A DNA stretch of 45,989 nucleotides from an uncultured Clostridia bacterium (lineage in GTDB: Bacteria; Bacillota; Dehalobacteriia; UBA4068). Numbering within the stretch: the first letter of the stretch is position 1; the number at the start of each line of letters is the position of its first letter. The notes under the pieces were generated by a model. That model was given only the letters and a program-made list of their open reading frames with translations, searched no databases and was not told the DNA's origin. A program made the position numbers and the translations under genes. Below are positions 19,368 through 35,798 of the stretch, one piece after another. The stretch is from positions 1 to 45,989 of the forward strand of contig CALYAP010000006.1 in assembly GCA_944393575.1 (NCBI GenBank), given 5' to 3'.

Positions 19368-19393
19368 TTTAAGTGGATACATATGGAGATATA

Positions 19394-21943
19394 ATGATAG
19401 TAGATCAGGATTTGTTAGAAAAGTTGATATTGCCTAAAGTGGAACGCCCCGCACAATATGTCGGTGGCGAATATAATATGATTCTCAAAGATTGGGACGC
19501 AGCGCCAGTGAAGATGTGTTTTGCTTTTCCTGATACTTATGAGATCGGTATGAGTCATCTGGGGTTGCGGCTGCTTTATGATACGACTAATAATCATAGT
19601 CCACATTTATGTGAGCGTGCGTTTATGCCACTTGATGATATGGCCGCCTTACTGAAAGCCAATCACATCCCGCTTTTTTCTTGGGAGAGCCATCATAGCC
19701 TAGCGGATTTTGATATAGTAGGTTTTACCCTCCAGTATGAGCTTTCTTATAGCAATATCTTATCAATGCTTGATCTGGCCGGTATTCCTGTGCTGGCGGC
19801 TGACCGCAGCGAAAATGACCCGTTAATTATTGCCGGCGGCCCCTGTGTTTATAACCCTGAGCCCTTGGCCGATTTTATCGATTTTTTCGTTATTGGTGAA
19901 GGCGAAGAAATGAACCTGGAAGTGTATGATCTGGTAGCCAAAATGAAGGCATCTTCCAGTGGCAAAGATGAGATTTTGCTGGCTGTTAAAGATATTCCCG
20001 GGGTCTATGTACCGTCACTATATACTGATAGCTACAAAGCTGATGGCCGTTTTGATAAGCTATCAGCGCATGATAATGCGCCTGAGACAGTCAAAAAACG
20101 GATCCTGACTGACATGGATAGTGCTCCTTTCCCTGATAAACCGTTGTTGCCATCGGTTAAACCAGTGCATGACCGTATTATGTTGGAGCTGATGCGCGGT
20201 TGTACCCATGGTTGCCGTTTCTGCCAGGCCGGGATCATCTACCGTCCGGTGCGGGAGAAGACAACCGCTCAGCTGGTCAAACAAGCAGCCGCTCAGGTTG
20301 ATAATAGCGGGTATGATGATATCTCGTTATTGTCACTTTCATCTGCAGATTATACTGATATCATTCCCTTGATGGAAAATCTTCTCTCCGCTCATAGCGG
20401 CTGTGGAGTCGGCATCAGTCTGCCATCCTTACGAGTAGATGCGATGAGCGTTGGTCTGGCTGCACGTACTCAAGAAGTGCGCAAAAGCGGGATTACCTTG
20501 GCTCCGGAAGCCGGCAGCCAACATCTGCGGGATATTATTAACAAAGGGGTAACTGGAGAAGATATTCTTAAAGCAGCGGCTGCCGCCTTTTCTCAAGGAT
20601 ATACCAGTATTAAATTGTACTTTATGATCGGTCTGCCTTATGAAGAAAATGCAGACATCACTGCCATTGGTGAATTATGCCGCAAGATTTTGCAATTAGC
20701 TAAACAACATAAACCAGCCGAAATAAAAAAACCGATTAAAATAACCTTGGGAGTTTCCTCTTTTGTGCCTAAACCACATACTCCATTTCAGTGGTTTGGA
20801 CAGGATAGCATAGAGAAATTACGTGCTAAACAGCAATTGCTTCGCGAAACGATCCGCCCGATGCGTCAAGTAACAGTGCATTTTCATGATCCGGAAGTCA
20901 GCTTTCTGGAGGCTGCTTTTGCCCGCGGTGATCGCCGTTTGGGCAAAGCGCTTCTGTTGGCTTGGCAAAAAGGATGCCATATGGATGGCTGGAGCGAATG
21001 CTTCCATTTTGACCGCTGGCAAGAGGCTTTTGCTGAGTGTGGACTATCGATGTCAGATTATGCCTGCCGCCAATATGCTTATGGTGAACCGCTTCCTTGG
21101 CAGCATATCGACTGCGGCGTAAGGATGGATTGGTTATGGAACGAATGCATAAAAGCAGGTCGCGCTCAGTTGACACCAGATTGCCGTTATGGTCAATGCA
21201 GTGGTTGCGGAGTTTGCGATAAGCAATGGCATTGTGCTTATGCCCCTAAAACAGAGATAAAAATGGCACCGCGCCGACAAATTAGAGAGTTGCCTCAACA
21301 GCTATATAAATATCGTTTGCGGTTGGCAGTGAGGGGGCGAATGATTTGGCTTTCGCATCTTGATCTGCTGGGCACGGTAGAAAGAGCTTTTCGCCGTAGC
21401 GGTTTGCCAGTTGCTTTTTCCCAAGGTTTCAATCCCCATATGCAGATATCATGGGGGCCTGCTCATCCGGTAGGTCTTGCCAGCGATAGTGAATATCTGG
21501 ATATCATCTTTACCGAACAATTGCCTGCAGATTGGTGTGAGCTTTTGAACCAGCAGCTTCCCGAGGGGGTAAAACTTTTATCTGCCAGGCAGATAGATAT
21601 GAACGCTAAAGCCCTGATGGCTATAATTAACTATATGGACTATCGGCTACAATTCACTGATCCTGATGGTGCCATCTTAGAGCAAAATTTCCATTTGCTT
21701 TGTGGGGCTTCTTCTTGGTTGATTGAACGAATCTCTCCCAAAGGTAAAAAAACAGTCGATATTCGTCCTTCTTTGGTAAAGTTATCACTTGATGGCGATC
21801 AGGTTCATTATTCAGTGCAGCTTGATAAGGGTTCCGTTCCCAAACCATGGGAGATTAGCAAGATTCTTTTACCTGATACTCCCTGCCAGGCATGGCGTAT
21901 TGGTATGTATGTGGCAGATGGCGAAAAATTGCTTGAGCCGTAA
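19394..21943 (+). CDS. B12-binding-like radical SAM protein fused to a DUF2344 domain (TIGR03960/TIGR03936 type)
   Basis: ATG 19394 after GGAG gives 849 residues. The N-terminal 230 residues resemble a B12-binding domain (FPDTYEIGMSHLGLRLLY, AGGPCVYNPEPLADFID). The radical SAM cluster is Cys270, Cys274 and Cys277 in RGCTHGCRFCQAG, followed by a SAM-barrel segment (APEAGSQHLRDIINKG). A cysteine-rich link (CRYGQCSGCGVCDKQWHC) leads to the C-terminal DUF2344 domain (YRLRLAVRGRMIWLSHLDLLGTVERAFRRSGLP). The family is conserved just upstream of rng and rplU in many Bacillota, as here. Its substrate is unknown; association with RNA or ribosome modification is only inferred from position. Confidence 0.92.
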   Translation: MIVDQDLLEKLILPKVERPAQYVGGEYNMILKDWDAAPVKMCFAFPDTYEIGMSHLGLRLLYDTTNNHSPHLCERAFMPLDDMAALLKANHIPLFSWESHHSLADFDIVGFTLQYELSYSNILSMLDLAGIPVLAADRSENDPLIIAGGPCVYNPEPLADFIDFFVIGEGEEMNLEVYDLVAKMKASSSGKDEILLAVKDIPGVYVPSLYTDSYKADGRFDKLSAHDNAPETVKKRILTDMDSAPFPDKPLLPSVKPVHDRIMLELMRGCTHGCRFCQAGIIYRPVREKTTAQLVKQAAAQVDNSGYDDISLLSLSSADYTDIIPLMENLLSAHSGCGVGISLPSLRVDAMSVGLAARTQEVRKSGITLAPEAGSQHLRDIINKGVTGEDILKAAAAAFSQGYTSIKLYFMIGLPYEENADITAIGELCRKILQLAKQHKPAEIKKPIKITLGVSSFVPKPHTPFQWFGQDSIEKLRAKQQLLRETIRPMRQVTVHFHDPEVSFLEAAFARGDRRLGKALLLAWQKGCHMDGWSECFHFDRWQEAFAECGLSMSDYACRQYAYGEPLPWQHIDCGVRMDWLWNECIKAGRAQLTPDCRYGQCSGCGVCDKQWHCAYAPKTEIKMAPRRQIRELPQQLYKYRLRLAVRGRMIWLSHLDLLGTVERAFRRSGLPVAFSQGFNPHMQISWGPAHPVGLASDSEYLDIIFTEQLPADWCELLNQQLPEGVKLLSARQIDMNAKALMAIINYMDYRLQFTDPDGAILEQNFHLLCGASSWLIERISPKGKKTVDIRPSLVKLSLDGDQVHYSVQLDKGSVPKPWEISKILLPDTPCQAWRIGMYVADGEKLLEP

Positions 21944-22023: not shown

Positions 22024-23307
22024 ATGCGTGAAATGCTGATTAAAATCAAGAATAAAGAAGCCTTTATCGCTATGACCAACGATAGGCAATTGATCGAGGT
22101 ATTCCTACCACGCCAGGATCATCAGAATCTTTTTGGCAATATTTATCTGGGTAAAGTTGAAAATGTTCTTCCCGGTATGCAGGCTGCCTTTATCAATATC
22201 GGCTTAGAAAAAAATAGTTTTCTTTATGTTGAAGACGCTCTGGCTCCTTCTTCGATAAATGGGCAGGGCAAGCTCCCTTCCGCGGATAGAACTAGACCTA
22301 TTAATGAACTGGTCAAACCAGGTCAGCAGGTGATGGTACAGCTATTTAAAGAGCCGGCTGGGACTAAGGGAGCTAGAGTTACGATGTATCCATCCCTGCC
22401 GGGACGTTTTGTCGTTTTGTTGCCGATGGGTGACTATATTGCTGTTAGCCGGCGTATCGAGGCAGAGGAGCAAAGAGAACAACTTAAAGAATTGGTGCGT
22501 TCTGAACTGCCAGAGCATATGGGTGCTATTATCCGCACAGTTGCTGGCAGTGCGCCGCCGCAGGCTATTTTAGCTGATTTGCACCGACTGATAAAGGAAT
22601 GGCATCGTATCCAAGGAAGAGCAGCTAAAGCAACTTCACCGGCCCTGTTGTACAGTGATTTTGATATGTTAAAAAGGGTAATACGTGATACGAATGCTGA
22701 TGATATCGATAAAATAGTGGTCGCTAATGCTGAAGATTACGAGGAAGTTAGCGATATTTGTGAATCGATCGCTCCTGGACTTCGTGATGCGTTAATTATT
22801 CGTGAAAGCAATGACCTTTTTGGGGACTATGATATTTATTCTCAGATGGAACGGGCTTTGCATCGTAAAATCTGGCTGAAAAGTGGCGGCTATATCATTA
22901 TTGACCAAACTGAGGCCCTGACTGCTATTGATGTCAATACCGGTAAATATATTGGCGAAAATGACTTGGCGTCAACTGTATTTAAAACTAATATGGAGGC
23001 GGTAGTAGAGATTGCCCGCCAGTTACGCCTGCGCAATATTGGCGGTATTGTTATCATTGATTTTATTGATATGGATGATCCCGAAGATAAGCAAAAATTG
23101 TTAGATGAACTAAATGAACGCATGAAAGAAGACCGTGTACGGATAACTGTTATGGGTATGACTCAACTAGGGTTAGTAGAGTTGACCCGTAAAAAAGTTG
23201 GGCATGACTTAAGTTCTGTGATAGAAAAAGAATGCCCTTATTGCGGAGGGAAAGGAAAAACTCCGGTAGATATTATGGAGATGTTACAAAAGTCGAGAGA
23301 TAGTTAG
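22024..23307 (+). CDS. rng: ribonuclease G/E family endoribonuclease
   Basis: The 427-residue protein is an RNase G/E catalytic core: an N-terminal S1-type RNA-binding segment (FGNIYLGKVENVLPGMQAAF), the catalytic aspartates in ALTAIDVNTGKY and GIVIIDFIDM, and the zinc-link motif CPYCGGKGK near the C terminus. It trims rRNA precursors and turns over mRNA by 5'-end-dependent cleavage. It lacks the long C-terminal scaffold of RNase E. A GGAG lies about ten bases upstream. An intrinsic terminator overlaps its stop codon, so the downstream coiled-coil gene is not its operon partner. Confidence 0.95.
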   Translation: MREMLIKIKNKEAFIAMTNDRQLIEVFLPRQDHQNLFGNIYLGKVENVLPGMQAAFINIGLEKNSFLYVEDALAPSSINGQGKLPSADRTRPINELVKPGQQVMVQLFKEPAGTKGARVTMYPSLPGRFVVLLPMGDYIAVSRRIEAEEQREQLKELVRSELPEHMGAIIRTVAGSAPPQAILADLHRLIKEWHRIQGRAAKATSPALLYSDFDMLKRVIRDTNADDIDKIVVANAEDYEEVSDICESIAPGLRDALIIRESNDLFGDYDIYSQMERALHRKIWLKSGGYIIIDQTEALTAIDVNTGKYIGENDLASTVFKTNMEAVVEIARQLRLRNIGGIVIIDFIDMDDPEDKQKLLDELNERMKEDRVRITVMGMTQLGLVELTRKKVGHDLSSVIEKECPYCGGKGKTPVDIMEMLQKSRDS

Positions 23308-23326
23308 TGTTTAGCTATCTCTTTTT
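23296..23326 (+). terminator. intrinsic terminator overlapping the rng stop codon
   Basis: AGAGATAGTTA (23296-23306) pairs with TAGCTATCTCT (23312-23322), allowing one G-T pair, then five T. The rng stop codon (23305-23307) lies in the hairpin. It cuts the radical SAM-rng unit off from the genes that follow. Confidence 0.85.
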
Positions 23327-23343
23327 ATATTATGAGAGATGGG

Positions 23344-23390
23344 AGCAGGAAAGCTGCCAATGCGCTTTCATTGGGGTCTGAAATCCTGCT
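23344..23390 (+). other. nested hairpin between rng terminator and coiled-coil promoter
   Basis: AGCAGGA (23344-23350) pairs with TCCTGCT (23384-23390) and encloses CCAATG/CATTGG (23357-23362 and 23369-23374). An AT-rich tail (AATTTTATTT) follows. It could be a second terminator or a small structured RNA; no known family is recognised. Confidence 0.35.
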
Positions 23391-23430
23391 AATTTTATTT
23401 ATTATAGATAATAATCTAAGACGTAAAGCA

Positions 23431-23459
23431 TTGCATTTTTGTGAAAATTTCGATATAAT
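23431..23459 (+). promoter_or_regulatory. promoter of the 1546-residue coiled-coil gene
   Basis: TTGCAT (23431-23436), exactly 17 bases, TATAAT (23454-23459). It is one of the best vegetative promoters in the window and predicts a leader of about 85 bases. Confidence 0.75.
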
Positions 23460-23552
23460 ATTTCAGAATGGATACATATATTTATTTGAATTTTTTAATT
23501 CCACTTTTTTCATGTAGTAAGCTGTTTTATTTATAGGGAGGGCAAATCTTCG

Positions 23553-26500
23553 ATGGCTAATAATAACCGCGATAACACCAAAGGTAGTTTTTGGAAAAAG
23601 CTTTTCAATAATGCGGCTGCCAGGGAAGGCATAAATGATCATGAGGAAGAACGACAACAAGTAAATCCCGCCCCTTCCAACTATTCATCCTCTGCTAACG
23701 ATATGCTGACCGCCAATAGCAGCTCTGACAATGAATATAATGAACTACAAGCGCAGGATAGCGGTTTTGTTGTCGATGAACAAGGTTCAATAGCCGCTCC
23801 TGTTGATGAAATATCCCAAGAACTAGCTGAAAAAGAATCAGCAATTCGCCAGTTAGAAGATGAGATCGTTCTTTTAGAAGAACGTTCTGCCCTTTTGCAA
23901 CAAAAGGCTGTGGATACTTTATCTGGATTAGCAGAGGCTGAGCGTCAGTATAATGAAGCTAATCAGGCCGTTAATCAGGCAGTTGACAATGAGACAGCTG
24001 TCAGGGAAGCACAAGAACAACTTTTTGCTACAGCTGAGGCAGAAAATGAGGCCCTAATCTCTCAGGCTGAAGGGCAAATTGCAGAGCTAAGAGCAACTTT
24101 GGCTGCAAAGAAGCAGGATTTGGCATCAGCTTTGGCGGAAATCGATAGAGCGGCGATGAATTTAGCTACAGATCAGGTCAATGGACAAGCTAAAGTACAA
24201 GATAAGTTTATCGTCATTGATGAAGAACTAGCTGATTTGCAAAAATTTCAGGTGGAAGCAGAAGCTGCGAAAAGGGATGCTGAGGAAAAAATTAATTCTT
24301 TGCAGTTAGCAGTAAAACGGGCACAAAATGAATATGACCGGGCTGCGAATGAATTGCACACGGCAGAATATCGTTTTAAAGAGAATAAATTTGATGAAAA
24401 ATTGGCTTCCTTAGCTGCTGCAAATAGTCAGAACCAAGAGAGATTGAATAAGGAGCTCAGCCAGACCGAGGAGTCGTTTACGCAGCAGATCGATGCTGCT
24501 GAGACCAAATACGAGCAATTGGCAGCAGAGATTGATGAGAAGAAAAATGAGGTAGCTGTTAATAGTGATAGAATATCCGTTGCGGAAGAGAGCTGTATTG
24601 CGGCCCAGAAAGAATATCAACGTTTACAGGCGGAAAAAGCGACTGTAGTGAAAGAGGCTGATGCTGAAATACAATTAATATCTGGCCGTGTTGAAGCAGC
24701 GCGTAAAGATGTTGAAGATAAAAAAGAAGCTTATGCAGAAGCTCAGAAACAGGTCCAGTTGAGCACTAGTATATCAGTAAAAGCTAATGCTCAGGCTTCG
24801 GCTGCACGGGAAAAAGCTGACAAAGCCGCTATGGAAAAGGCTGATGCTGCTACCGCTGCTCAAATGGCTCAGAAATTGAAATCAGACGCTACAGTAGCGA
24901 GAGTGAACACTGATGAAGCATCGTCTTTGCTTTTATCAAAAGCAGAGATGGTGCTATTAAATACTTCTGAAAAAGCGATTAGATTACTTGAAGAGAAAAC
25001 CTCCTTGGCAGAGATCGCTGAACAAGAGGCTGCACATTTGCGTTCAGAAGCTGATTTAGCTGCTGCAGAAGCTAAGCGGGCAGCTGGAGTTGCTGATAAA
25101 ATGATTGCCTTGTGGTTGGCTGCAGAGGAAAGCTTGGTTAAAATTACAACAGATGCAGAAGAAAATAAACGCCAGATAGAGGAGCGTACTGCTTTAGTCG
25201 TTGAGCAATACGAGCAGAATATTGCCGCTGCTCAGCAGACTATAGAGGAACAGCAGCAAGAGTCGCTGGCAGCAACAGCTGCGTGTGATAAAGCAAAAGA
25301 GGAATTAGCTCATTGTGAAAAAGAGTATGCCGATATAGAAGCACAAATAACAGACCTAAAAGATAACTATGCTATAGAGAAAGCTAGATTAGAGGAAGAA
25401 TTAACTGCTGCTATTGCATCCTCCGAACAGACTATTACCGAGTGCCAGAATGAACAAGCAGCAATGTTAAGAAAGATAGAGGATAAGCGGGCTGCTTTTG
25501 AATATCGAGAAAATCAGCTATCTACACTTGTTGAGGAACTAAATACTGAGCAGGAAAGCTTAGCTGCTTTGCTGAGCCGCACTGACGATAAATTGACCGG
25601 TTATCAAGAAAGAATTATACAGAAACAGGCTGAACATCATTCAGCTTTAGCTGAGATGAATGCCTTGATTAGCGATACTCTTTCATATTTAACGTCTTGC
25701 CGGAGTAAGGCTGAGCGTATATCTGCAAATATTGCTGAACTCGAAAAAGGTCTTAGTGATACTGTTACCAAGGCGGATGAGATTGAGGAAGATTCCGTAG
25801 ATAAATTGGTGCAGATCCGCGCTGATGGCGAGAAAGAAATTGCTTCTGCTGTGAAAATTACCTCTGCTGCCCGCGATACGGCTGGGGAGTATTATGCAAA
25901 ATTACAGTCTGCCCGTACTGATGCTGAGGTTAAGGTCAAGGCAGCAGTAGATGCATCTGTTGCTCGTTTAGAAGCACTTAACCGTTTATCTTGCCAATAT
26001 ATAGAAAAAGATATTTTTGGTTTGGATAATGATATTAAGTCTGCCAATGAGCGTATGCTGGCAACTAAAGAAGTTTTTGAAGAAGCAAAGGCTATTTACT
26101 TCGAATTAGAGGCAGAGTCTGACTCATTGCTTAAAGAAAAAGCTGAATTAACGGATCTCTATGACCATAAATATCAGGAACTAACCGCTGAAAAGGGAAA
26201 GGAGATTGAGCTTTTAGAGCAAGAAATTGCTTTCCTTACGAATATAGAAAAAGAATGCCAGACCGCATTAGCTGATGCTAATTCGGTTATGGATAAGATC
26301 ATAGTGGAATATACATCTGCCCAAGAGCGGTTACATGCCCGTATGGCTGAAAAAGATAAACTTTCTGCGGAGTCTGCTGAGCAATTGGCAACTTTAGATG
26401 AAAATTACCGTATTGCCATGGAAGGTGACGGGGAAGAAATACCCCTGTTGCGCAAAGTGTTTGAAGACTGCAAGCAAAAACGTGAGCAGGCTATTGCTGC

Positions 26501-28193
26501 TTTTGCTGCCGCTGATTCCCAATGGCAGCAGCAAGTGGCTACTACCGCTGATTTACGTAATAATGAGCTTGCTTTTAAACAGGATAGCTCTTCCCAGTTA
26601 GCTCAGTTAAAGGATGAGGATGCTGTTAGATTGCAGGAAATGCAGGATAGCATAGCAGCTTTGGAGAGTGAAAAGAGTGAGCTTGATGCAGCATATGCTA
26701 AAGCCCAGGAATACGCTGCTACTAATGAGACTGCACGGCAAGAGGCAGAAGGATATTTGCAGCGTATTATTGATGAAGAACAGCATCAGCAGGATACCGT
26801 TGATAAAGAACTGCGTAAAATTAATGATCACCTGCAGTTGCTTAAAGATGATGCGGAGGATAAAGAACAAAAGTATCGCACTACCGCTAATATTGTTAAA
26901 AACAGCTTGCAGATGATGAAAGATGCTGAGGATACTTTAACTTTAGCCCAAAATACCTTTAATAGGGCACAGACAGAGTTAAATGCTGCTGAGGCTGCTT
27001 ATAACACTTCCCGTGCTTTAGCAGATCAGGCCGCCCAATCTTATCAAACAGTTGACAATGATACTGCCGCTATTTTGAAGCGTGCTTCGGAAGAATTAGT
27101 TGTAGCAGCAGATAATGCTGCTGTCTTCGTCGAGGAGAAAAAGAAAGAATATTTATTGGCTAAAGAAGACTTTGATTCTGCTAAAAGCAATTTTGAGAGT
27201 GTCAGCCAAACTGTTAATGAGGCGCCCGATTTAGCTGATGAGGAGAAGGCTGTTTGGTTGAAGGCCGATAGTGAATACCAAAAATACAAACAGGAGGCAG
27301 AGCAGCAGATTCCTGCTATCAAAAATGCTTTTGCTGCTTTTTTGGCAGATCGTGCTAATGCTAAGGCTGCTGCCCAATCCACTGTTAATAAATGCGTTAA
27401 AGAGAGCGAAGAAACGAAGCGGAATTTGGAATCCTTATCTGGACGAATAATGGAAACTTTGGCAGAGATCTCTCGTTTGACCTCTGAAAAACAAATGCTG
27501 GAAAATAGCATTATCGAAAATCAAGCCAAAGTAGAGAAGGATATCGAGACTTCTTTATTAGCAAAGCAGGAAGCCCGTGAAAATGCGGAAGAATTAACTA
27601 ACCGTTTGGAAATGGTTATGTTACAGCGCAAAGAAGAACGGGATAATGCTTTGGAGCAGTTTGAAAAAGCAAAGAACCATTATCAGGATGTTTGTAATGC
27701 CGTTGACCGGCAATATTATGATGATAAAGCAGATATTGAAAATAGGTTAGCGAAAATGGTGCGTGCTGCGGATAAGGCCAGTTTTATTTTTAGTTCAACC
27801 GCTGAATTGAGAAAGCAATCAGCAGAGAAATTAGCCGCGGCACAAGAACGCTACCAGACGATAGTTGAGTCAAAAGAGAGAGCTTTGGAAGCCAAAGCTA
27901 AATTAATCGAAAAGAAGGATGAAGAGCTTCATGAATTAGAAGAGGTAAAGCTGAGGGTTTTAGGTAATAATGCAATGGCACGGATAGCTGCCGAAGGAAA
28001 GGCGGCTAAAGCCAATAGTGATTATGTACGGAAAAAAGCTTTGTTTGAAGAAGCTGATAAGACTTTGCAGGATTTATTGCAGCAACGTGACTTGGCATCC
28101 CATAAGCTAGCTACCCTTCAGGAAGATGGTGAACGGGCTATTGCTGCGGCCAAAGAAAATATTTTATATATGATGAAAGATACTGCTGTGTAA
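23553..28193 (+). CDS. giant Ala/Glu-rich coiled-coil protein (1546 residues), function unknown
   Basis: The start follows GGGAGGG at ten bases. The first 22 residues are basic and include GSFWKKLFNNAAA, a possible amphipathic helix. Residues 25-85 are Ser/Asn-rich and acidic, probably disordered. From about residue 85 to the C terminus the chain is nearly unbroken heptad and hendecad sequence rich in Ala, Glu, Lys and Gln, with almost no Pro or Gly. There is no signal peptide, membrane helix, or Walker A or other nucleotide-binding motif, so it is not an SMC or Rad50 ATPase. A 55-residue module at residues 428-482 and 1142-1196 recurs in the next gene. If it is one continuous coiled coil, the length at 0.15 nm per residue would be over 200 nm. 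A cytoskeletal, scaffold or spacer role is inference only. Confidence 0.85.
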   Translation: MANNNRDNTKGSFWKKLFNNAAAREGINDHEEERQQVNPAPSNYSSSANDMLTANSSSDNEYNELQAQDSGFVVDEQGSIAAPVDEISQELAEKESAIRQLEDEIVLLEERSALLQQKAVDTLSGLAEAERQYNEANQAVNQAVDNETAVREAQEQLFATAEAENEALISQAEGQIAELRATLAAKKQDLASALAEIDRAAMNLATDQVNGQAKVQDKFIVIDEELADLQKFQVEAEAAKRDAEEKINSLQLAVKRAQNEYDRAANELHTAEYRFKENKFDEKLASLAAANSQNQERLNKELSQTEESFTQQIDAAETKYEQLAAEIDEKKNEVAVNSDRISVAEESCIAAQKEYQRLQAEKATVVKEADAEIQLISGRVEAARKDVEDKKEAYAEAQKQVQLSTSISVKANAQASAAREKADKAAMEKADAATAAQMAQKLKSDATVARVNTDEASSLLLSKAEMVLLNTSEKAIRLLEEKTSLAEIAEQEAAHLRSEADLAAAEAKRAAGVADKMIALWLAAEESLVKITTDAEENKRQIEERTALVVEQYEQNIAAAQQTIEEQQQESLAATAACDKAKEELAHCEKEYADIEAQITDLKDNYAIEKARLEEELTAAIASSEQTITECQNEQAAMLRKIEDKRAAFEYRENQLSTLVEELNTEQESLAALLSRTDDKLTGYQERIIQKQAEHHSALAEMNALISDTLSYLTSCRSKAERISANIAELEKGLSDTVTKADEIEEDSVDKLVQIRADGEKEIASAVKITSAARDTAGEYYAKLQSARTDAEVKVKAAVDASVARLEALNRLSCQYIEKDIFGLDNDIKSANERMLATKEVFEEAKAIYFELEAESDSLLKEKAELTDLYDHKYQELTAEKGKEIELLEQEIAFLTNIEKECQTALADANSVMDKIIVEYTSAQERLHARMAEKDKLSAESAEQLATLDENYRIAMEGDGEEIPLLRKVFEDCKQKREQAIAAFAAADSQWQQQVATTADLRNNELAFKQDSSSQLAQLKDEDAVRLQEMQDSIAALESEKSELDAAYAKAQEYAATNETARQEAEGYLQRIIDEEQHQQDTVDKELRKINDHLQLLKDDAEDKEQKYRTTANIVKNSLQMMKDAEDTLTLAQNTFNRAQTELNAAEAAYNTSRALADQAAQSYQTVDNDTAAILKRASEELVVAADNAAVFVEEKKKEYLLAKEDFDSAKSNFESVSQTVNEAPDLADEEKAVWLKADSEYQKYKQEAEQQIPAIKNAFAAFLADRANAKAAAQSTVNKCVKESEETKRNLESLSGRIMETLAEISRLTSEKQMLENSIIENQAKVEKDIETSLLAKQEARENAEELTNRLEMVMLQRKEERDNALEQFEKAKNHYQDVCNAVDRQYYDDKADIENRLAKMVRAADKASFIFSSTAELRKQSAEKLAAAQERYQTIVESKERALEAKAKLIEKKDEELHELEEVKLRVLGNNAMARIAAEGKAAKANSDYVRKKALFEEADKTLQDLLQQRDLASHKLATLQEDGERAIAAAKENILYMMKDTAV
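24834..24998 (+). repeat. 55-residue hendecad module, copy 1 (residues 428-482 of the 1546-residue protein)
   Basis: Protein-level repeat that aligns without gaps to three others. Positions constant in all four copies are Ala5, Ala8, Ala19, Leu34, Ala37, Leu41, Ala48 and Lys55. This copy reads DAATAAQMAQKL near its start and SLLLSKAEMVL at positions 31-41. Confidence 0.75.
26976..27140 (+). repeat. 55-residue hendecad module, copy 2 (residues 1142-1196 of the 1546-residue protein)
   Basis: This is the most divergent copy, yet it keeps all eight constant positions. It reads RALADQAAQ at 13-21, AAILKRASEEL at 31-41 and DNAAVFVEEK at 46-55. It lies 714 residues after copy 1. Confidence 0.65.
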
Positions 28194-28249
28194 CCGATAT
28201 ATTAATTGATATTGGAGTGATTTATGAGTAGCTTTACTATAGTGCATTA

Positions 28250-28278
28250 TTGAAACCATCTTGGTTTTATGATATAAA
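28250..28278 (+). promoter_or_regulatory. promoter with palindromic spacer, 1000-residue coiled-coil gene
   Basis: TTGAAA (28250-28255), 17 bases, TATAAA (28273-28278). The palindrome AAACCA-TCT-TGGTTT (28253-28267) fills most of the spacer and may be an operator, or may act as the terminator of the preceding gene. Confidence 0.5.
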
Positions 28279-28311
28279 TTTTGTTTATAACAAGAAAAGG
28301 CGGAAGGTATC

Positions 28312-31300
28312 ATGGAAAAAAATTTTGATAATTTAACGATGATTTTAGATAAATGCAAAGAAGAAATGCATGGAGCTGCCAATGAAGATGAACTGCAGCG
28401 TTTAATTAGTGATGCGCATAACTATATTGATACTTGTAATAGTGAACTGGAACAGGCTAAAAAAACAATTGAGCTAACCAATGAGCAACTTAATGCAGTA
28501 ACTGAGGCTCATAAAGAGAGTGAGCACAGGGCAGACTTGGCTGCTACAGAAGAGAGTGATGCTCATACTGCGTGGGAAATGGCTAAAAAAATGTTAGATG
28601 ATGCTACCATAGCAGATAGTTTAGCCAATAAAGAAGCTGCTATGATCCTACAGAAAGCTGCAACTGTTTTGCAGGATACTGTAGCTAATGCTGAGGAATT
28701 TTATCTTAAGAAAGCACAGGAAAAAGAAGAAATTGATGCTGCTACTATTCGCCTTTTGGCTACTCAAAAAGCCATTGAATATACGGTAGCTCGCGCCTAT
28801 ACCACTGAAGGAATACGCCTAAGAGATGTGGTATTGGCACAATTGATGGCTGATGTGAAGACTGGTGAAAAAGAAGTAGTCGGCTGGCAGAAGAGCATTG
28901 ATGAAATAAATAAAGAAAAAGAGGTAGGCAGATTTAACGAAAAAATATCTGCTCTGCAGGAGTCTTTGCGCGCTGCTGAGGAAAAGATCGATCTGAATAT
29001 CATAGCTGAGGAAGAAGAACATAGCAAACAGCAGTCATATTTAGAAGAGCAGAAAAAATCTTGCCGGGAACGCTTATCTGCTATCGATGAGCAGATGCAG
29101 GATAAAATAGCCCAAAAGACGCTTAAAGATGATGAACTGACAACTGCTAGAAGTCAATACGAGCAACTGTTGGCAGAAAGCAACTCTGCTGATTTAACAT
29201 TAGAGCAGGTTGCTAGAGATATTGATGATGCTATAAATAAAGATAAAGAGGAAAAATTAGCAGCTTTTGACCGCTTAGATGATGGTATTGAACAAATACG
29301 TCAGTCAGTAGCGGTTAAAAAGCAGGATTATATGGCAGCAGAGGAAAAAGTCAGAACAGCAACATCCCATCTGGATGATGTTAAACAGCAATTAGTCTCT
29401 TTACAGCAAAGGGCTGAAGTTGCTAAAGCCGAGGAAGAATCTGCTCATGAGGCGGCAGAGGTTGCTAGACGGCTGGTAGATAATGCGGTTAAAGTACGTT
29501 TATCTATTAGTCAGGAGAGTGCAGATTTATTATTATCTGCCCAAGAAGCATTGACTGAATCGGCTAATGCTGCTGAAGAATTGGAGCAAAAAAAATATCA
29601 ATACCGCATAGATCTGGAACAAAAATGCCAAGAGATGGATCTTAGTGTTGAACAGGCTGAGAAGGATACTGATTCTGCAGAGCATGATGCTGTTTTTGCT
29701 AAGGCTGTTTGGGAAAATGAAGAGGCTGAACTTGTTAAAGAGATAGAAAGAGTTTCAGCACAAAAGAAAGAGCTTGATGAAAATTTTGACCATAAGGTCG
29801 AAGAATATGATATCCGGCTGACTACTGTAAGGGCTGCTGCAGATAAAGTGCGTTCTCAGCTAGCTGCAGCTACAGAGACTGTCGCTGATTTAGAAAGACA
29901 TCTGGCTGATTTAGAACAGGATATCGCTGCTTTTGGACTAGAAAGGTCACGTATTGAGAGCGATACTGACGAGCGCTGTACCACATATTTGTCAGAGAGT
30001 CAAGCGCGGTTGGATGTTATTTTAGCTGATAAGCAAATAGCACAAAATGAAGCTGAGGTATATCGTCGTGAGTTAGATAGCGCCCAGAACGATTTGGCTG
30101 CGCTGGAGGCACGAGCGGCTGAACTATCTGCTAAACTTGCAGAAGCACAAAACAGTGTGGATGAACTGATCGATGCTGGTTCGGAACAGGTTCTAGCAGC
30201 GGAAATAGAGCTGGAGAGTCGTAAAGAAGCCGAAGAAGCAGCCCGGCTGGCAGCTGATGAGATCGCTCAATATATTGAAGATAGCAATGTGCCACCAGTT
30301 GATTATAGTACGATTCCATTGACCAATGAAGTGGATTTGGTAGATGAACCTATTGTTGAGGAAATGGAAGCTGAACTAACAGATGATATAGCTGCTGAAG
30401 AGGCTGAGCTTACTGATGAAGATGCCTTTACTGACACTGATATCGAAACAGAAGAATTATTAGCCGAACAAGATATTGATGAGTCTCTGGAAGATTTAAT
30501 CGAAGAGATTGATGATATTATTGAAAATACCCAGGATCTTGAGCCTATTGCGAAAGATGATCTTGCATCGGACATTGAAGTAGCTGAGGAGAATGAAGAG
30601 CAAGAAGAACTCAGTATAGCAGAAGATAACCAAGAAGCTTCTGAAGAAGAACCGCTTCTTTCCGATGAGGAGATCCTTTCCGAAGCTGTTCCGGAAGAAG
30701 AGGAGATTTCCGATGCCATTTTAGAGCAGCCTGAAGATTCTGAGCTGATTATCGAAGATGCGGTAATTGTTCCTAAAGAAGAAGCGGATGTTGCCATTGC
30801 CGAAACAGATGAAAGCGAAGAAGTGGCTGATGAGACAGTGGCAACTGCCGAGGAAACGGATGCAGCTGCCCAGCTGGAGATTGAAGAAGAAATACCTACT
30901 GAAGAAGATGCCGAGGCTAAGCGTCGTGCCGAGGAAGAGGCTGAAGAAGCAGCTATCTTAGCTGGTTTGACTGGCGGTTTGCCTAAGATAGATACTGATG
31001 ATAGCGATGAGAGCGCAGAGTATACTGCTTGGCTGGATATTATTAGCAGTGATGTCATTGAAAAATTGATGAATGAGGACGATAGTAACAATGCTGCTAA
31101 TGCTCAGACTGATGCCAATGACTGGATCGCTGATTTAGAGCAGACTTTTATCAAGGAAGACTTAGCCCTGAAACATAATGATAATGCCTCTAGCCAAGAT
31201 ACTGACGATAAAGAGACAGCAGCAGAGGAAAGCTCACCTGCTCATAATGGTCATAAGGATAAGCATTCTGCAAAGAAAAATAAGAAAAACAAGAAGTCAT

Positions 31301-31314
31301 TCCGCTTCTTCTAA
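28312..31314 (+). CDS. long coiled-coil protein with acidic C-terminal region (1000 residues), function unknown
   Basis: Residues 1-655 are coiled coil of the same Ala/Glu-rich type as the preceding gene, with two copies of the shared 55-residue module (80-134 and 374-428), so the two proteins are partial paralogues. Residues 660-890 are an extremely acidic, probably disordered stretch of Glu, Asp, Ala and Ile. A short region near 890-960 (ILAGLTGGLPKI, EYTAWLDIISSDVIEKLM, DWIADLEQTFI) looks foldable. The chain ends in a strongly basic aromatic tail, KKNKKNKKSFRFF. No signal peptide, membrane helix or nucleotide site is seen. It has its own promoter; the rplU promoter starts eight bases after its stop. 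Start ATG is preceded by GGAAGG. Confidence 0.85.
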   Translation: MEKNFDNLTMILDKCKEEMHGAANEDELQRLISDAHNYIDTCNSELEQAKKTIELTNEQLNAVTEAHKESEHRADLAATEESDAHTAWEMAKKMLDDATIADSLANKEAAMILQKAATVLQDTVANAEEFYLKKAQEKEEIDAATIRLLATQKAIEYTVARAYTTEGIRLRDVVLAQLMADVKTGEKEVVGWQKSIDEINKEKEVGRFNEKISALQESLRAAEEKIDLNIIAEEEEHSKQQSYLEEQKKSCRERLSAIDEQMQDKIAQKTLKDDELTTARSQYEQLLAESNSADLTLEQVARDIDDAINKDKEEKLAAFDRLDDGIEQIRQSVAVKKQDYMAAEEKVRTATSHLDDVKQQLVSLQQRAEVAKAEEESAHEAAEVARRLVDNAVKVRLSISQESADLLLSAQEALTESANAAEELEQKKYQYRIDLEQKCQEMDLSVEQAEKDTDSAEHDAVFAKAVWENEEAELVKEIERVSAQKKELDENFDHKVEEYDIRLTTVRAAADKVRSQLAAATETVADLERHLADLEQDIAAFGLERSRIESDTDERCTTYLSESQARLDVILADKQIAQNEAEVYRRELDSAQNDLAALEARAAELSAKLAEAQNSVDELIDAGSEQVLAAEIELESRKEAEEAARLAADEIAQYIEDSNVPPVDYSTIPLTNEVDLVDEPIVEEMEAELTDDIAAEEAELTDEDAFTDTDIETEELLAEQDIDESLEDLIEEIDDIIENTQDLEPIAKDDLASDIEVAEENEEQEELSIAEDNQEASEEEPLLSDEEILSEAVPEEEEISDAILEQPEDSELIIEDAVIVPKEEADVAIAETDESEEVADETVATAEETDAAAQLEIEEEIPTEEDAEAKRRAEEEAEEAAILAGLTGGLPKIDTDDSDESAEYTAWLDIISSDVIEKLMNEDDSNNAANAQTDANDWIADLEQTFIKEDLALKHNDNASSQDTDDKETAAEESSPAHNGHKDKHSAKKNKKNKKSFRFF
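28549..28713 (+). repeat. 55-residue hendecad module, copy 3 (residues 80-134 of the 1000-residue protein)
   Basis: It reads DAHTAWEMAKKMLDDAT at 4-20 and AMILQKAATVL at 31-41, and aligns ungapped with copy 1 (DA-TA--MA-K---DAT-A shared) and with copy 4 (AH-A-E-A----D-A shared). Confidence 0.78.
29431..29595 (+). repeat. 55-residue hendecad module, copy 4 (residues 374-428 of the 1000-residue protein)
   Basis: It reads AHEAAEVARRLVDNA at 5-19, ADLLLSAQEAL at 31-41 and NAAEELEQKK at 46-55. It lies 294 residues after copy 3. Confidence 0.78.
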
Positions 31315-31321
31315 AAATACC

Positions 31322-31351
31322 TTGACAGTATTGCTGATGATATGGTAAAAT
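31322..31351 (+). promoter_or_regulatory. promoter of rplU-rpmA
   Basis: TTGACA (31322-31327), 18 bases, TAAAAT (31346-31351), with TG at 31343-31344 making an extended -10. It lies directly after the coiled-coil stop codon. Confidence 0.75.
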
Positions 31352-31357
31352 TCATCT

Positions 31358-31425
31358 GTTGCCAAACCGCACCGAACTGGTTAAAAGTGCGTAAGCCACC
31401 TTTATCGGGCGAGTCTATATAGTAG
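31358..31425 (+). promoter_or_regulatory. ribosomal protein L21 leader (probable autoregulatory RNA)
   Basis: The 80-base leader between promoter and rplU contains CCAAACCGCAC, a loop, GTGCG, then TAAGCCACC and CGGGCGAGTCT. The CGCAC/GTGCG stem (31368-31372 with 31387-31391) and the GUAAGCCACC element match my memory of the Rfam L21 leader found ahead of rplU in Bacillota. Binding of L21 to this leader is the accepted model of feedback control. A covariance search would settle the assignment. Confidence 0.6.
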
Positions 31426-31438
31426 GGGAGGTGCAACG

Positions 31439-31756
31439 ATGTTCGCGATTATCGAATCAGGCGGCAAGCAGTATAAGGTTGCTGAGGGCGATACCATCAG
31501 AGTAGAGCTTCTCGACACTGAGGCTGGTTCTGTTTTTGAGATAGACAAAGTCCTCGCTGTGTATGATGATAATGATTTCAGAGTAGGTAAACCTTATCTG
31601 GAAGATGCTAAAGTCGCTTGTAAGGTAGTAGAGCATGGCAAAGGCAAAAAGGTAGTGGTTTTCCATTATAAACCTAAAAAGAACATTCGTACTAAGAATG
31701 GTCATCGCCAGCCCTATACCAAATTGCAGATAGAAAGCATTAAAGTTGCTGAATAA
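31439..31756 (+). CDS. rplU: 50S ribosomal protein L21
   Basis: The 105-residue protein begins [18 protein letters not shown] and ends with the basic [24 protein letters not shown] typical of L21, which binds 23S rRNA and contacts L20. The length is normal. GGGGAGGTG precedes the ATG. It forms a two-gene unit with rpmA 56 bases downstream, with no prp (ysxB) gene between. Confidence 0.98.
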
Positions 31757-31812
31757 TTGTTGAAAATATAGGGGATTCCCTTTGTTATTTGAATTTAAAG
31801 GAGGCGAGTTAT

Positions 31813-32061
31813 ATGGCTCATAAAAAAGCAGGCGGTAGTTCACGTAACGGACGCGATTCAGCAGCACAACGCCTGGGCCTCAAATGCGGTGATGGTCAGG
31901 CTGTTAGCGCTGGCAGCATTTTAGTACGGCAGCGCGGGACAAAATTCCATCCTGGCAATAATGTTGGTATTGGTAAGGATGATACTCTTTTTGCTAAAAT
32001 CGACGGTCAGGTTCGTTTTGAGAGAAAAGACCGTAACCGCAAACAGGTCAGCGTATATTAA
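31813..32061 (+). CDS. rpmA: 50S ribosomal protein L27
   Basis: The ATG at 31813 follows a strong AAAGGAGG and gives 82 residues starting [16 protein letters not shown]. The conserved N-terminal arm reaches the peptidyl transferase centre. In many Bacillota L27 carries a nine-residue leader removed by the protease Prp; this one has none, like E. coli L27. The upstream in-frame TTG at 31789 would add eight residues made from the ribosome binding site and is not a Prp-type leader. Confidence 0.97.
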
Positions 32062-32072
32062 ACTTAAAACTA

Positions 32073-32107
32073 ACAGCCACTTGATCAAGCAAGTGGCTGT
32101 GTTTTTT
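32073..32107 (+). terminator. intrinsic terminator of rplU-rpmA
   Basis: ACAGCCACTTG (32073-32083) pairs perfectly with CAAGTGGCTGT (32090-32100), followed by GTTTTTT. On the minus strand the same stem is followed by TAGTTTT and may stop the converging coiled-coil transcript. Confidence 0.9.
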
Positions 32108-32120
32108 ATTTGTAACCATG

Positions 32121-32148
32121 CAGCAGCTAAATATTGGCTGCTGTTTTT
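32121..32148 (+). terminator. second plus-strand terminator
   Basis: CAGCAGC (32121-32127) pairs with GCTGCTG (32137-32143), then TTTTT. It backs up the previous hairpin just before the end of the convergent gene. Confidence 0.65.
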
Positions 32149-32149
32149 A

Positions 32150-34354
32150 TTAATCTGCATTTAAATCAGCCAAGATCCGTTTTCTTACCTCTTGTTCAAA
32201 AGCAATGTCCATCTCATTATTGTTGTAATCTAACTTTTTCGTTTTTGTTTCTGTTGGTGAATAATGCAGGTTAGAGTTTTTCTTTTGTGGATATATTGAA
32301 TTACTCTCAGAAGATGGCATAGTGGTGTTATTGCTGTTAGCATTATTAAATGCACTATCACTGAGTATTTTGCTAATGCTCCTTCTTAGCGATTGTTTGA
32401 TATCGGCTGGATTGAATTGTGGTTTGTCAAGGTATATTGGCTCTTCCAGTGCTAATGCATATATCTGGGATATGGTGGTTTTAGGAATAGTAGCTATATA
32501 TGGCGTATCCGGTACGATGGGGATTTTAGGCGTACTGCTAATTAGCTTACGGGCTGTTTGCGCCAAAGAATTTTGCTCATCAGTTATGATGGCTTTCTCC
32601 GCTTGGATATCTATGAGCAAATTATTCGTTGCCTGTTGCTGGCGCTGTTGTTGCATCAATAATTGATCGGTTTCTTCTCTAGCTTGTTGGAGTTTTTGCT
32701 TTGCCTCATCGATAATTTGCTGAAGGTGGTCGATATCACGGTGTACCTGTGCTGTATTGGCCCAGCAATTGCCTAATTCTTCATTAAATGTTTTCCATTG
32801 TGGTGATATTAAGTCCGTAAGCTGTTGATATTGATCCCATAGCTCGCTAAGCTCACGATATTTTTGGTCTATTTGTTTATCCGCTTTTTTGGTGAAGTTC
32901 TCTAATGGATAATCATTATCTTTGCGGTATTTATCTTGTAGTATTTGCTGATAATAATTTGCTATCAGTAATGCAAATCTTAATCTATAAACTTCTTTTT
33001 GGGCATTTTCGCTAGATATCTTAGCTATATTTACTTTTTCTTGTGCTGCAGTTGTATTGGCAGCTGCTTGCTCGATTATTTGCCGATATTTTTTGTTGGC
33101 AAGAGTTTTTTGCTGTTCGATATAGCTGGCAATTTGCTGATAGTTATTGTTGACTGTGATGATGTTCTGATTAATCGCAGGAAGTTCTTTTTGTAGTTGG
33201 GTAATATCTTCGCCTAAAGCCAAAGACTGGCTTAACAGACCTTTGATTTGCATATTTATTTTATCTAAATTCAGATAAGCTTTATTTATTTCAGTATCTA
33301 TTTTTAATAATGTTACCTGTATGGAAATATCTGATTCGGGTGAGTAATGATATTTAGATGATGATTGAATTGCGGTTACTTTTTGTTGAGCTATCTTGGC
33401 TTGTTCAATACGCCGCGAAAACATCTTTCTGCTGCTGGCAGCGTTTTCTAGTTCTTGTTTAATTTTTTGCCTTTTATCAAATATGCTTTGCAGCAATGTT
33501 TTTTTGTGCTCATATAGTTGCTGTAATTGTTGGGATTTTTTTTGGAGCCTTTTTGTGATTTGGTCGCACTTATTAAAGATATCATCGTATCTCAGGGTGG
33601 ACTGCTGATTGATTTGTTTTTCTGTTTGCTGTGCTTGCCGCAATTTTTGTTGTACTTTCTGGTGCTGTTGATGAGTCATCTGGTATTTTGATAATGCTTG
33701 AGCATAATTTTGAGCTATATCACTAGTTTGTCGTTGAGCGGTGGCCAGTTGGCGTTGGTAGTTGTTGATTTGCTGTTCTATTTGGGCTATTTCGCTAGGT
33801 AACTGTTGTTGCAGGTGCTCTAGGAGCTGATTAGCATTACTGCTTTGCTGGATATTTTCCGCTAGCTTTTTTTGTTGTTCTAATAAAGATGATAGTTGCT
33901 GATAATATTTTGTAGCTTTAGCAAATTTTTTTAATATAGCTAATTGTCCACTAATAATATCTTTTTCAGCTTTGGCTATGCTATACTTGTTTTCAGTATC
34001 AACAAGTGATTCGTAGGTCAAGGCACGCATCAGGGAGATTTTATATGCGTTGAGAAATGCCGTTTGGACAGTAAGTTCAAGGCATAGTTTGTCAGTGGTA
34101 TTATTATCAGTAATATGCCCTGGGGGGTCTTTAATATCATCAATAAGCGCTAGTGATTTCTGGCGTAATGCAGTAGCTTTTCGTACCACGGCGTATGATT
34201 GATCCTCTTGTTTGTTAAGCTGCTGCAGCTGGCTGTTGAGAAGCTGATATCGCTGCTGGATAGTATTAAGAGACTGGAGCTTATTATGCAGTTCTTGCTG
34301 GTAAAGAACTATTATTCTCTCCAATGAATTGTCTGGACCATTAGTTGCTGCCAT
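32150..34354 (-). CDS. Gln/Asn-rich long coiled-coil protein (734 residues), function unknown
   Basis: It is the only minus-strand gene between 9 kb and 41 kb. The ATG follows AAGGAG. Residues 1-600 are predicted coiled coil with very frequent Gln (QQL, QQQ and HQQHQ runs), few Ala and many Lys/Arg, unlike the acidic Ala/Glu-rich pair upstream. Around residue 600 the chain changes to a Pro-containing segment (TPKIPIVPDTPYIATIPK), then a Ser/Asn-rich stretch, and ends with a short helix (EMDIAFEQEVRKRILADLNAD). No signal peptide, membrane helix or nucleotide-binding motif is visible, and I did not find the 55-residue module. It lies between rpmA and obgE, where no such gene normally occurs. 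Confidence 0.82.
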   Translation of the reverse strand: MAATNGPDNSLERIIVLYQQELHNKLQSLNTIQQRYQLLNSQLQQLNKQEDQSYAVVRKATALRQKSLALIDDIKDPPGHITDNNTTDKLCLELTVQTAFLNAYKISLMRALTYESLVDTENKYSIAKAEKDIISGQLAILKKFAKATKYYQQLSSLLEQQKKLAENIQQSSNANQLLEHLQQQLPSEIAQIEQQINNYQRQLATAQRQTSDIAQNYAQALSKYQMTHQQHQKVQQKLRQAQQTEKQINQQSTLRYDDIFNKCDQITKRLQKKSQQLQQLYEHKKTLLQSIFDKRQKIKQELENAASSRKMFSRRIEQAKIAQQKVTAIQSSSKYHYSPESDISIQVTLLKIDTEINKAYLNLDKINMQIKGLLSQSLALGEDITQLQKELPAINQNIITVNNNYQQIASYIEQQKTLANKKYRQIIEQAAANTTAAQEKVNIAKISSENAQKEVYRLRFALLIANYYQQILQDKYRKDNDYPLENFTKKADKQIDQKYRELSELWDQYQQLTDLISPQWKTFNEELGNCWANTAQVHRDIDHLQQIIDEAKQKLQQAREETDQLLMQQQRQQQATNNLLIDIQAEKAIITDEQNSLAQTARKLISSTPKIPIVPDTPYIATIPKTTISQIYALALEEPIYLDKPQFNPADIKQSLRRSISKILSDSAFNNANSNNTTMPSSESNSIYPQKKNSNLHYSPTETKTKKLDYNNNEMDIAFEQEVRKRILADLNAD

Positions 34355-34526: not shown

Positions 34527-35798
34527 ATGTTTTGTGATTATGTAAAAATTTTTGTCAAAGCTGGCGATGGCGGAGATGGGGCAGTGGCCTTTCGCCGAGA
34601 AAAGTATGTGCCTTTGGGCGGTCCTGCCGGCGGTGATGGCGGTCGGGGCGCATCTATCATTTTAGTCGGTGATAGTGCGCTATCGACCTTGAACGATTTT
34701 AAATATCGGCGGCACTATAAAGCTCCCAGAGGCGCTAATGGAATGTCTAAAAATATGAATGGCGCCTGGGGAGAGGATATGCGTCTATTAGTTCCGTTGG
34801 GAACCATTGTCAAAGATGAAGCAGGCAATTTCTTGGCTGATATCTCTCATGCCGGGCAAGAATTTGTGGCAGCTAAAGGTGGGCGCGGAGGACGCGGTAA
34901 TGTCCGCTTCGCTAACGGCAAGGATAAAGCTCCTGCTTATGCCGAAAAAGGAGAACCTGGACAAGAACGCACCTTGATCTTGGAGTTGAAGCTAATCGCT
35001 GATGTGGGGCTGATTGGTTTGCCAAATGCCGGCAAATCAACGCTACTGTCGAAGATTTCAGCAGCTCAGCCTAAAATAGCTAATTACCCTTTTACAACAT
35101 TGGAGCCAAATTTGGGTATGGTACGTCTGGATGACGAGACTAGCTTTGTAGTTGCTGATCTTCCCGGCCTCATCGAGGGTGCATCTTCTGGTATCGGTCT
35201 AGGTCACCGTTTCCTACGCCATGCAGAGCGTAACCGCATTCTGATCCATGTATTGGATCTAAGCGAATATGCAACACGTTCACCTTATGAAAGTTTTATG
35301 CTTATTAATGAGGAATTGAGCCTTTATAAAGAAGATTTTCTTAGCCGTCCGATGCTTATTGCCGCTAATAAAGCTGATATGCCAGGATTTGGGGAAAATC
35401 TGGCTGAGCTGCAAAATAAGATTGGTGATAAATATGAGATCTTCTCAATCTCTGCTTTAACCGGAGAAGGTATCAAACCTTTGCTGTGGAGAGTTAAGGA
35501 GCTCTTGGACGAGATCCCGATCATGCCCTATATCCCTCAAACCGAGGTAGTTAAAAATACTGTCGTTAGAGCGGAGGAGCCTTTTGTTATTGAAAAGGAT
35601 GCTAATGGCATTTGGCAGGTTACTGGCGAGCGGGTAGAAAAATTAGTCCAGATGACCGATCTCAATAATGATGACGCTGTCTTAAGAATGCAGAGGATTT
35701 TTGTCAAGATGGGGCTGGAAAATGCTTTATGCGAAGCTGGGGTAGAACCTGGCGATACGGTAAGCATTGCCGGCAATGAATTTGAATATGCAGAGTGA
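34527..35798 (+). CDS. obgE: GTPase Obg, ribosome assembly factor
   Basis: The 423-residue protein has the Gly-rich Obg fold (residues 1-158, GDGGDGAVAFRREKYVPLGGPAGG), the G domain with GLPNAGKST (164-172), the switch YPFTTLEPN, DLPGLIEG, and NKAD, and the C-terminal OCT domain seen in many Bacillota (about 345-423). Obg binds 50S precursors and guanine nucleotides, and links ribosome maturation to growth control. The length is normal. nadD starts four bases after its stop. Confidence 0.97.
   Translation: MFCDYVKIFVKAGDGGDGAVAFRREKYVPLGGPAGGDGGRGASIILVGDSALSTLNDFKYRRHYKAPRGANGMSKNMNGAWGEDMRLLVPLGTIVKDEAGNFLADISHAGQEFVAAKGGRGGRGNVRFANGKDKAPAYAEKGEPGQERTLILELKLIADVGLIGLPNAGKSTLLSKISAAQPKIANYPFTTLEPNLGMVRLDDETSFVVADLPGLIEGASSGIGLGHRFLRHAERNRILIHVLDLSEYATRSPYESFMLINEELSLYKEDFLSRPMLIAANKADMPGFGENLAELQNKIGDKYEIFSISALTGEGIKPLLWRVKELLDEIPIMPYIPQTEVVKNTVVRAEEPFVIEKDANGIWQVTGERVEKLVQMTDLNNDDAVLRMQRIFVKMGLENALCEAGVEPGDTVSIAGNEFEYAE

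Follow-up and report, generated by a model that had tools for sequence, protein, structure and literature searches.

Between the genes rng and rplU, a 45,989-nucleotide stretch from an uncultured Clostridia bacterium of the UBA4068 lineage (contig CALYAP010000006.1; here called the window) carries two genes for very long coiled-coil proteins, which we term CC1 (1546 residues) and CC2 (1000 residues). Both are built around a repeated helical-hairpin block held at fixed spacing. Together with CC3 and CC4, encoded beside obgE in the window or its relatives, we cautiously favour the view that they form a single family of paralogues, cytoplasmic coiled-coil rods with several hairpins, which would serve as an ATP-independent scaffold or tether. 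The repeated block, its fixed spacing, the conservation of register and of the termini, the selection acting on the genes and their restriction to one lineage all emerge from comparing homologous sequences. The architecture is well supported; the cellular role is inferred. The family is previously undescribed; its general kind, the long coiled-coil scaffold, is already known.

Pairwise identity along CC1 and CC2 is uneven, with a background of about 0.15–0.2 that rises to 0.45–0.63 in a few alignment windows. These correspond to copies of a single helix-turn-helix block of approximately 70 residues, which occurs twice in CC1 and twice in CC2. A profile hidden Markov model (HMM) built from any one copy recovers the other copies in homologues and nothing else in the CC proteins, and there were no matches when the block model was run against reversed sequences and 20 heptad-preserving shuffles of each sequence. 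Given this shared block, CC1 and CC2 are, as judged from their sequences, paralogues. A comparison of whole-protein profiles was set aside and replaced by the block model with its shuffled controls, since coiled-coil composition inflates the scores of such comparisons. The block itself has no relative in Pfam or PDB. The proteins are therefore more than plain coiled coils, carrying a repeated block at fixed spacing along with conserved terminal peptides. The original prediction had overlooked the kinship of the two genes, the block and its spacing.

The distance between the blocks is kept with unusual strictness. Of six CC1 homologues, five (G000, the genome of the window, and G001, G002, G012 and G018) have their block starts separated by 714 residues, and the sixth (G015) by 712. 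The 643-residue spacer between the blocks is free of gaps among those five, at identities of 19–27% between genera (59% and 72% for two congener pairs), making for an unusually clear spacer signature. This identity of 19–27% is seen at register 0, compared to about 10% at other offsets, and the hydrophobic pattern of the spacer correlates (0.39–0.47) at offset 0 only. The spacer in G015 has 642 residues, its 21 gap columns compensating one another for a net change of a single residue. In CC2 the blocks are 293–295 residues apart. All CC1 and CC2 sequences have a helical period of 3.54–3.55, which lies between the heptad and hendecad lattices. The described signature of coiled-coil molecular spacers is a length that is kept as the sequence diverges (PMC5082667), and a related length constraint has been reported for SMC arms (PMC5344682). 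The CC1 spacer keeps its length across five diverging homologues and so bears the mark of a molecular spacer. The term describes a way of working and not membership of a family, with the conserved tips and terminal peptides as candidate binding ends. Constant length with diverging sequence is shared with golgins such as giantin and with Ndc80 (PMC5082667), whereas the CC family is bacterial, comes as a multi-member locus with repeated helical-hairpin blocks, and has no homology to them that we could find.

The block sequences carry an N-cap-like stretch in mid-block, and the chain was therefore expected to reverse direction in each. Blocks had been located by sequence, and this hypothesis recorded, before AlphaFold2 models were collected. 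The model of CC2 (from an alignment of 6 sequences) has helices at residues 25–104, 107–205, 208–397 and 404–657, with turns at 105–106 and 398–403. The predicted local distance difference test score (pLDDT) is mostly 80–91 in the coil and below 50 in a linker at 662–865, and the predicted template modelling score (pTM) is 0.36. For residues 331–1300 of CC1, the model places turns at 451–454 and 1167–1168, both inside blocks, with a middle part of low confidence. Modelled turns thus fall within all four blocks of CC1 and CC2, and the helices, together with the helical period, are those of an extended coiled-coil rod.

Both proteins also have a conserved basic-aromatic end. Near the N-terminus of CC1 is a short peptide that reads KGSFWKK in the window and SFWRK in genera g2 and g11. 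At the other end of the pair, a run of K/R followed by F-x-F-F closes all five CC2 proteins whose C-terminus is known, after a long and variable acidic linker. In one g2 genome (G019; L058 and L041) this linker consists of a long array of EEAPAEE repeats, and the C-terminus combines an ELRRxIL motif of the type found in CC3 with an FFSFF tail of the CC2 type.

The original prediction counted two genes, which falls short. A search with the block across the order found further copies at a second site, beside obgE, and a third coiled-coil gene in the window itself (CC3, on the reverse strand at 32150–34354, beyond rplU and rpmA) had been missed. Two coiled-coil genes of about 1090–1310 residues, divergent from obgE, are present in G012 and G018 (g11), G008 (g7; CC3 cut by a contig end) and G019 (g2), and a single one lies beside obgE in G004 (g3). 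CC3 of the window (g1), of 734 residues, has this position and orientation and the CC3 C-terminal motif, and G001 has a like gene. In all, the obgE-side genes occur in five genera. The CC3 proteins of the other genera have two blocks about 289–292 residues apart at an N-terminal offset like that of CC2, whereas only a single block is detectable in CC4, all four of whose observed sequences end in a basic C-terminus. Since g3 and g7 carry the obgE-side genes without CC1 or CC2, this locus is probably the older of the two.

We compared the region in 20 genomes from one family and found CC1 and CC2 in only three of its genera (g1, g2 and g11). Genomes of g1 and g11 read rng-CC1-CC2-rplU, though in G002 and G018 a contig break falls within CC2. 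In g2 the picture is less uniform: G015 shows rng-CC1-CC2 as far as the contig reaches and rplU on a separate contig beside a biotin-ligase-like gene, and in G019 rng is followed directly by CC2, with no CC1 between, the C-terminus of CC2 preceding rplU on another contig. The separation of CC2 from rplU in G015, with the biotin-ligase-like gene 5′ of rplU, is either a rearrangement or a binning problem. The uninterrupted order that had been supposed for rng and rplU is real, as rplU directly follows rng in seven relatives (G004, G007, G008, G009, G013, G014 and G017), and the notion of an independent locus is likewise borne out, the insert being lineage-specific and present in g1, g11 and partly g2. 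One further genome, G006, has an unrelated 517-residue gene with a probable signal segment between rng and rplU (L035:7417-8970), and the junction has therefore taken other insertions; a 622-residue open reading frame there was rejected as it runs antisense to this gene, which has no coiled coil. A tree of five neighbouring proteins (FastTree, midpoint root) puts all genomes with CC1 or CC2 in one clade with a support of 1.000, adjoined by G008 (g7) and G004 (g3). The simplest reading of this history is one gain followed by vertical descent.

The ratio of nonsynonymous to synonymous substitution rates (dN/dS) between two g11 congeners is 0.16 for CC1, 0.20 for CC2, 0.15 for CC3 and 0.12 for CC4, compared to 0.05 for rng. 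The values for CC1 and CC2 argue that these are not chance reading frames; the CC genes are functional and under purifying selection but fast-evolving. Searching beyond the family added little. A scan of genome contigs with CC1 alone found nothing, and one with the alignment recovered only the genomes already known. Sampling the phylum (398 genomes) for the block gave G000, G004 and one match at chance level, with no genome added beyond such a match when CC3 and CC4 blocks were included in the profile. Overall, only five related genera have the system. The carriers are uncultured gut and digester bacteria; the window includes a set of glycine cleavage genes, a trait reported for UBA4068 (PMC10327494) and in keeping with a probable place in that order, class Dehalobacteriia, and the main text of that paper mentions neither MreB nor coiled coils.

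The same genera share a second feature. MreB, the usual cell-shape protein, occurs in its true form (matches with E below 1e-100) in g6, g8, g9, g10, g12 and g13, and was not found in any of the 13 genomes of g1–g5, g7 and g11, which include all the carrier genera. Genomes without it give weak matches near 1e-22 and poorer, mostly to Hsp70-like frames of 500–665 residues. MreC follows the pattern of MreB (it was not found in G014), a contaminant contig in G002 aside. The MreC match on that 3-kb contig (L108, C101), which also has a PBP2-like gene, was assigned to contamination of the bin because the contig has 28% G+C against 48–52% elsewhere and the match has about 30% identity to the MreC of the family. 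The distribution of DivIVA among the relatives was uninformative. On the tree, the pattern fits a single loss of MreB before the coiled-coil family arose. Loss of mreB has been widely linked to coccoid shape (PMC7766704); we regard the absence of MreB and MreC as a lead and not as evidence that the CC proteins replaced them.

A scaffold, which had been proposed at the outset, is still the natural suggestion from the sequences of CC1 and CC2, and the comparisons give it a more definite form. Full members comprise one or two blocks of about 70 residues held apart by coiled coil that keeps its length and hydrophobic register but little of its sequence. The chain is predicted to reverse at each block, so that the blocks become the tips of hairpins, and these may be sites of protein interaction. 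The arms would then be spacers that set the distance between tips: 714 residues would span about 106 nm if extended, or roughly half as far with both arms folded back. Judging by their composition, the basic-aromatic peptides at the N-terminus of CC1 and the C-terminus of CC2, the latter at the end of the flexible acidic linker, could be where the rods dock on the membrane or on a single partner. Acting together, the rods would give a lineage that has lost MreB and MreC a scaffold or tether, whose most plausible use would lie in cell shape, in division or in organising the envelope. A long coiled coil of obscure role in this way becomes a machine that can be tested, with defined tips, a ruler of fixed length and anchors at the termini, and the clade provides natural ground for asking whether bacteria replace the actin-like cytoskeleton with nucleotide-free scaffolds. 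A bolder form of the idea is distinctly doubtful, namely that a lineage having lost MreB and MreC evolved its own nucleotide-free cytoskeleton, in which one to four paralogous double-hairpin rods of fixed length act as a molecular ruler for shape or division, measuring for instance the distance from membrane to nucleoid or between components of the division site.

Several observations weigh against the scaffold. The AlphaFold2 models rest on 6 sequences, have pTM values of 0.29–0.36 and are of low confidence in the middle of CC1, and their turns, taken with a mirror-symmetry test, leave intramolecular folding and intermolecular pairing undistinguished. The block HMM detects no block in CC3 of the window or of G001, and the window protein is thus placed in the family solely by where it lies and by its C-terminal motif. 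No one member can be indispensable in every genome, since rng and CC2 of G019 have no CC1 between them and G002 has no CC3. Genera g4 and g5 are also without MreB, yet no block was detected in them; with these, and with one loss set against one gain, the association of the CC proteins with MreB carries no statistical weight.

The best of the alternatives is that CC1 and CC2 are intermediate-filament-like coiled-coil-rich proteins (CCRPs) that polymerise into cytoplasmic filaments. They would resemble crescentin, FilP, Scy, HmpF or the interdependent pair ZicK/ZacK in being cytoplasmic, rich in coiled coil and, in their case, a paralogous pair, and CCRPs have been linked to cell shape, with one pair known to copolymerise (PMC7766704; PMC7002697). 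However, Pfam gives no match to any described CCRP family, and CC1 and CC2 differ from the bacterial CCRPs in their 1000–1546 residues, in the hairpin blocks at fixed spacing and in being lineage-specific. A simple filament, moreover, needs no strict spacing from tip to tip. Intermediate-filament proteins have a continuous rod, unlike the CC rods, which are predicted to break at conserved hairpin turns, and we consider this explanation unlikely.

The structural matches bring in a second alternative, in which CC1 and CC2 are head-less relatives or mimics of SMC, Rad50 or MukB arms that organise the nucleoid. In Foldseek the top matches of CC2 are indeed antiparallel arms (JetC, MukB, condensin, PrgA, Rad50 and a chemoreceptor), and long length-constrained arms with a predicted reversal of the chain at a conserved tip are common to SMC, Rad50, MukB, JetC and the CC proteins. 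These matches are generic, though, with template modelling scores of at most 0.17 among the significant ones, and for CC1 nothing was found below E 0.001. In NCBIfam, CC1 matches only an SMC model (SMC_prok_B), at 33.5 bits against a curated cutoff of 567.35. Neither CC1 nor CC2 has a Walker A motif (G....GK[ST]), Pfam finds no ABC head, hinge or other domain, a zinc hook is likewise absent, each chain is predicted to have two tips, and no sequence membership was found. Membership of SMC/Rad50 was accordingly rejected, and even the looser kinship proposed here is very unlikely. The chemoreceptor matches (2ch7 and 3zx6, both weak) offer a similar analogy, as cytoplasmic chemoreceptor hairpins also have a conserved tip as interaction site and arms as spacer, but the CC proteins lack the chemoreceptor signalling domain (by Pfam) and a membrane segment, and have two tips per chain.

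The proteins might instead serve their neighbours in ribosome assembly (rplU, rpmA, obgE and rng), perhaps by scaffolding the maturation of ribosomes or the decay of RNA, given that in several genera every member borders on these genes and that CC3 and CC4 stay beside obgE even with rplU-rpmA on another contig (G004 and G012). Vertical descent and local duplication suffice to explain this synteny, though, rplU is preceded by a promoter and leader of its own, and most relatives keep the neighbours without the CC genes, which leaves the explanation with slim prospects. It is hardly credible that the CC proteins are structural proteins that are secreted, sit on the surface or derive from phage (an adhesin or a tape measure) and whose signals were lost: great length, repetitive helices and one tape-measure protein among the weak structural matches speak for it, against the lack of any signal or transmembrane segment, of any PHROG match and of phage genes among the reading frames compared around the locus, and against stable vertical synteny in the clade.

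These assignments agree with what had been proposed from the window, namely that CC1 and CC2 have no membrane helix, signal or nucleotide-binding motif and are neither SMC/Rad50 ATPases nor surface proteins. By every library searched (Pfam, NCBIfam, PHROG, PADLOC and PDB) they are neither of these, nor phage proteins. The highest 19-residue Kyte-Doolittle mean is 0.98 in both CC1 and CC2, leaving no transmembrane-like segment and, by hydropathy, no signal peptide or membrane or wall anchor of the kind that surface adhesins have. Pfam returned no family for CC1, CC2 or CC3, including DivIVA (PF05103) for CC1 and CC2, and DivIVA is absent from G000 altogether. For CC1 and CC2 there was no family in PHROG, and hence no phage tape-measure or virion match, none in PADLOC, and hence no anti-phage defence match, and nothing informative in sequence searches of PDB, where keratin and a spike mimic, matched at E values of at least 0.001, were put down to coiled-coil composition. 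The viral matches of CC2 in Foldseek were also set aside as generic.

The two reading frames stand where the original prediction placed them, between the rng stop at 23307 and the rplU start at 31439 (Table 1).

Table 1. Positions of the CC genes, their parts and the flanking features in the window
Feature	Position	Strand	Evidence or remark
rng (RNase G), 5′ flank of CC1	22024..23307	+	open reading frame; orthologues keep order in relatives
Intrinsic terminator over rng stop	23295..23323	+	13-bp stem, then T run
CC1, 1546-residue coiled-coil protein	23553..28193	+	open reading frame; homologues in G001, G002, G012, G018, G015; dN/dS 0.16 in g11
CC1 N-terminal basic-aromatic peptide (TKGSFWKKLF)	23577..23606	+	SFW[KR]K-like in 5/6 homologues; LWTK in G001
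CC1 block a, residues 421–491	24813..25025	+	helical hairpin; HMM, 0 matches in shuffled controls; AlphaFold2 turn 451–454
CC1 spacer, 643 residues	25026..26954	+	gap-free across five homologues
CC1 block b, residues 1135–1205	26955..27167	+	helical hairpin; block HMM; AlphaFold2 turn 1167–1168
CC2, 1000-residue coiled-coil protein	28312..31314	+	open reading frame; homologues in g1, g2, g11
CC2 block a, residues 73–143	28528..28740	+	block HMM; AlphaFold2 turn 105–106
CC2 block b, residues 368–438	29413..29625	+	block HMM; AlphaFold2 turn 398–403
CC2 acidic disordered linker, residues 662–865	30295..30906	+	pLDDT < 50; length varies among homologues
CC2 basic-aromatic C-terminal tail (...KKNKKNKKSFRFF)	31264..31311	+	K/R run then F-x-F-F
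rplU promoter, TTGACA-18-TAAAAT with TG	31322..31351	+	11/12
L21 leader RNA (RF00559)	31353..31426	+	36 bits, equal to the Rfam gathering score
rplU	31439..31756	+	open reading frame and gene order in relatives
rpmA	31812..32061	+	Pfam L27 E 9.7e-38; start is ATG
CC3, 734-residue coiled-coil protein between rpmA and obgE	32150..34354	-	position and C-terminal motif
CC3 C-terminal motif (EVRKRILADLNAD)	32153..32206	-	E-[LV]-R-[RK]-x-I-[LF] in 6/6 CC3 C-termini
obgE, divergent from CC3	34527..35798	+	open reading frame and gene order in relatives

Transcription signals around the locus agree in part with what had been proposed. The terminator overlapping the rng stop is present, with a stem of 13 pairs. 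Each gene had been given its own promoter, which is only partly supported: a TTGCAT-17-TATAAT site spotted by eye near 23431–23459 is a candidate promoter of CC1, and nothing convincing lies 5′ of CC2. A scan for promoter-like sites gave 39 between 22 and 35 kb, barely above the 29.9 ± 5.0 expected from shuffled sequence. Only 118 nucleotides separate the CC1 stop from the CC2 start and no terminator is listed between them, so that, with no convincing CC2 promoter, the two genes may form a single transcript. Since rplU has its own near-consensus promoter and L21 leader, its regulation is independent of CC2. The interval between rpmA and CC3 (32073–32144) contains two strong terminator hairpins, the first of which could act in both directions. 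Upstream of rng, the TIGR03960 radical SAM gene (19373–21943) is a single fused reading frame in the window, as it is in g2, g3, g4 and g7; in g11 the contig stops within it, and it consists of two adjacent genes in g5, g6, g8, g9 and g12.

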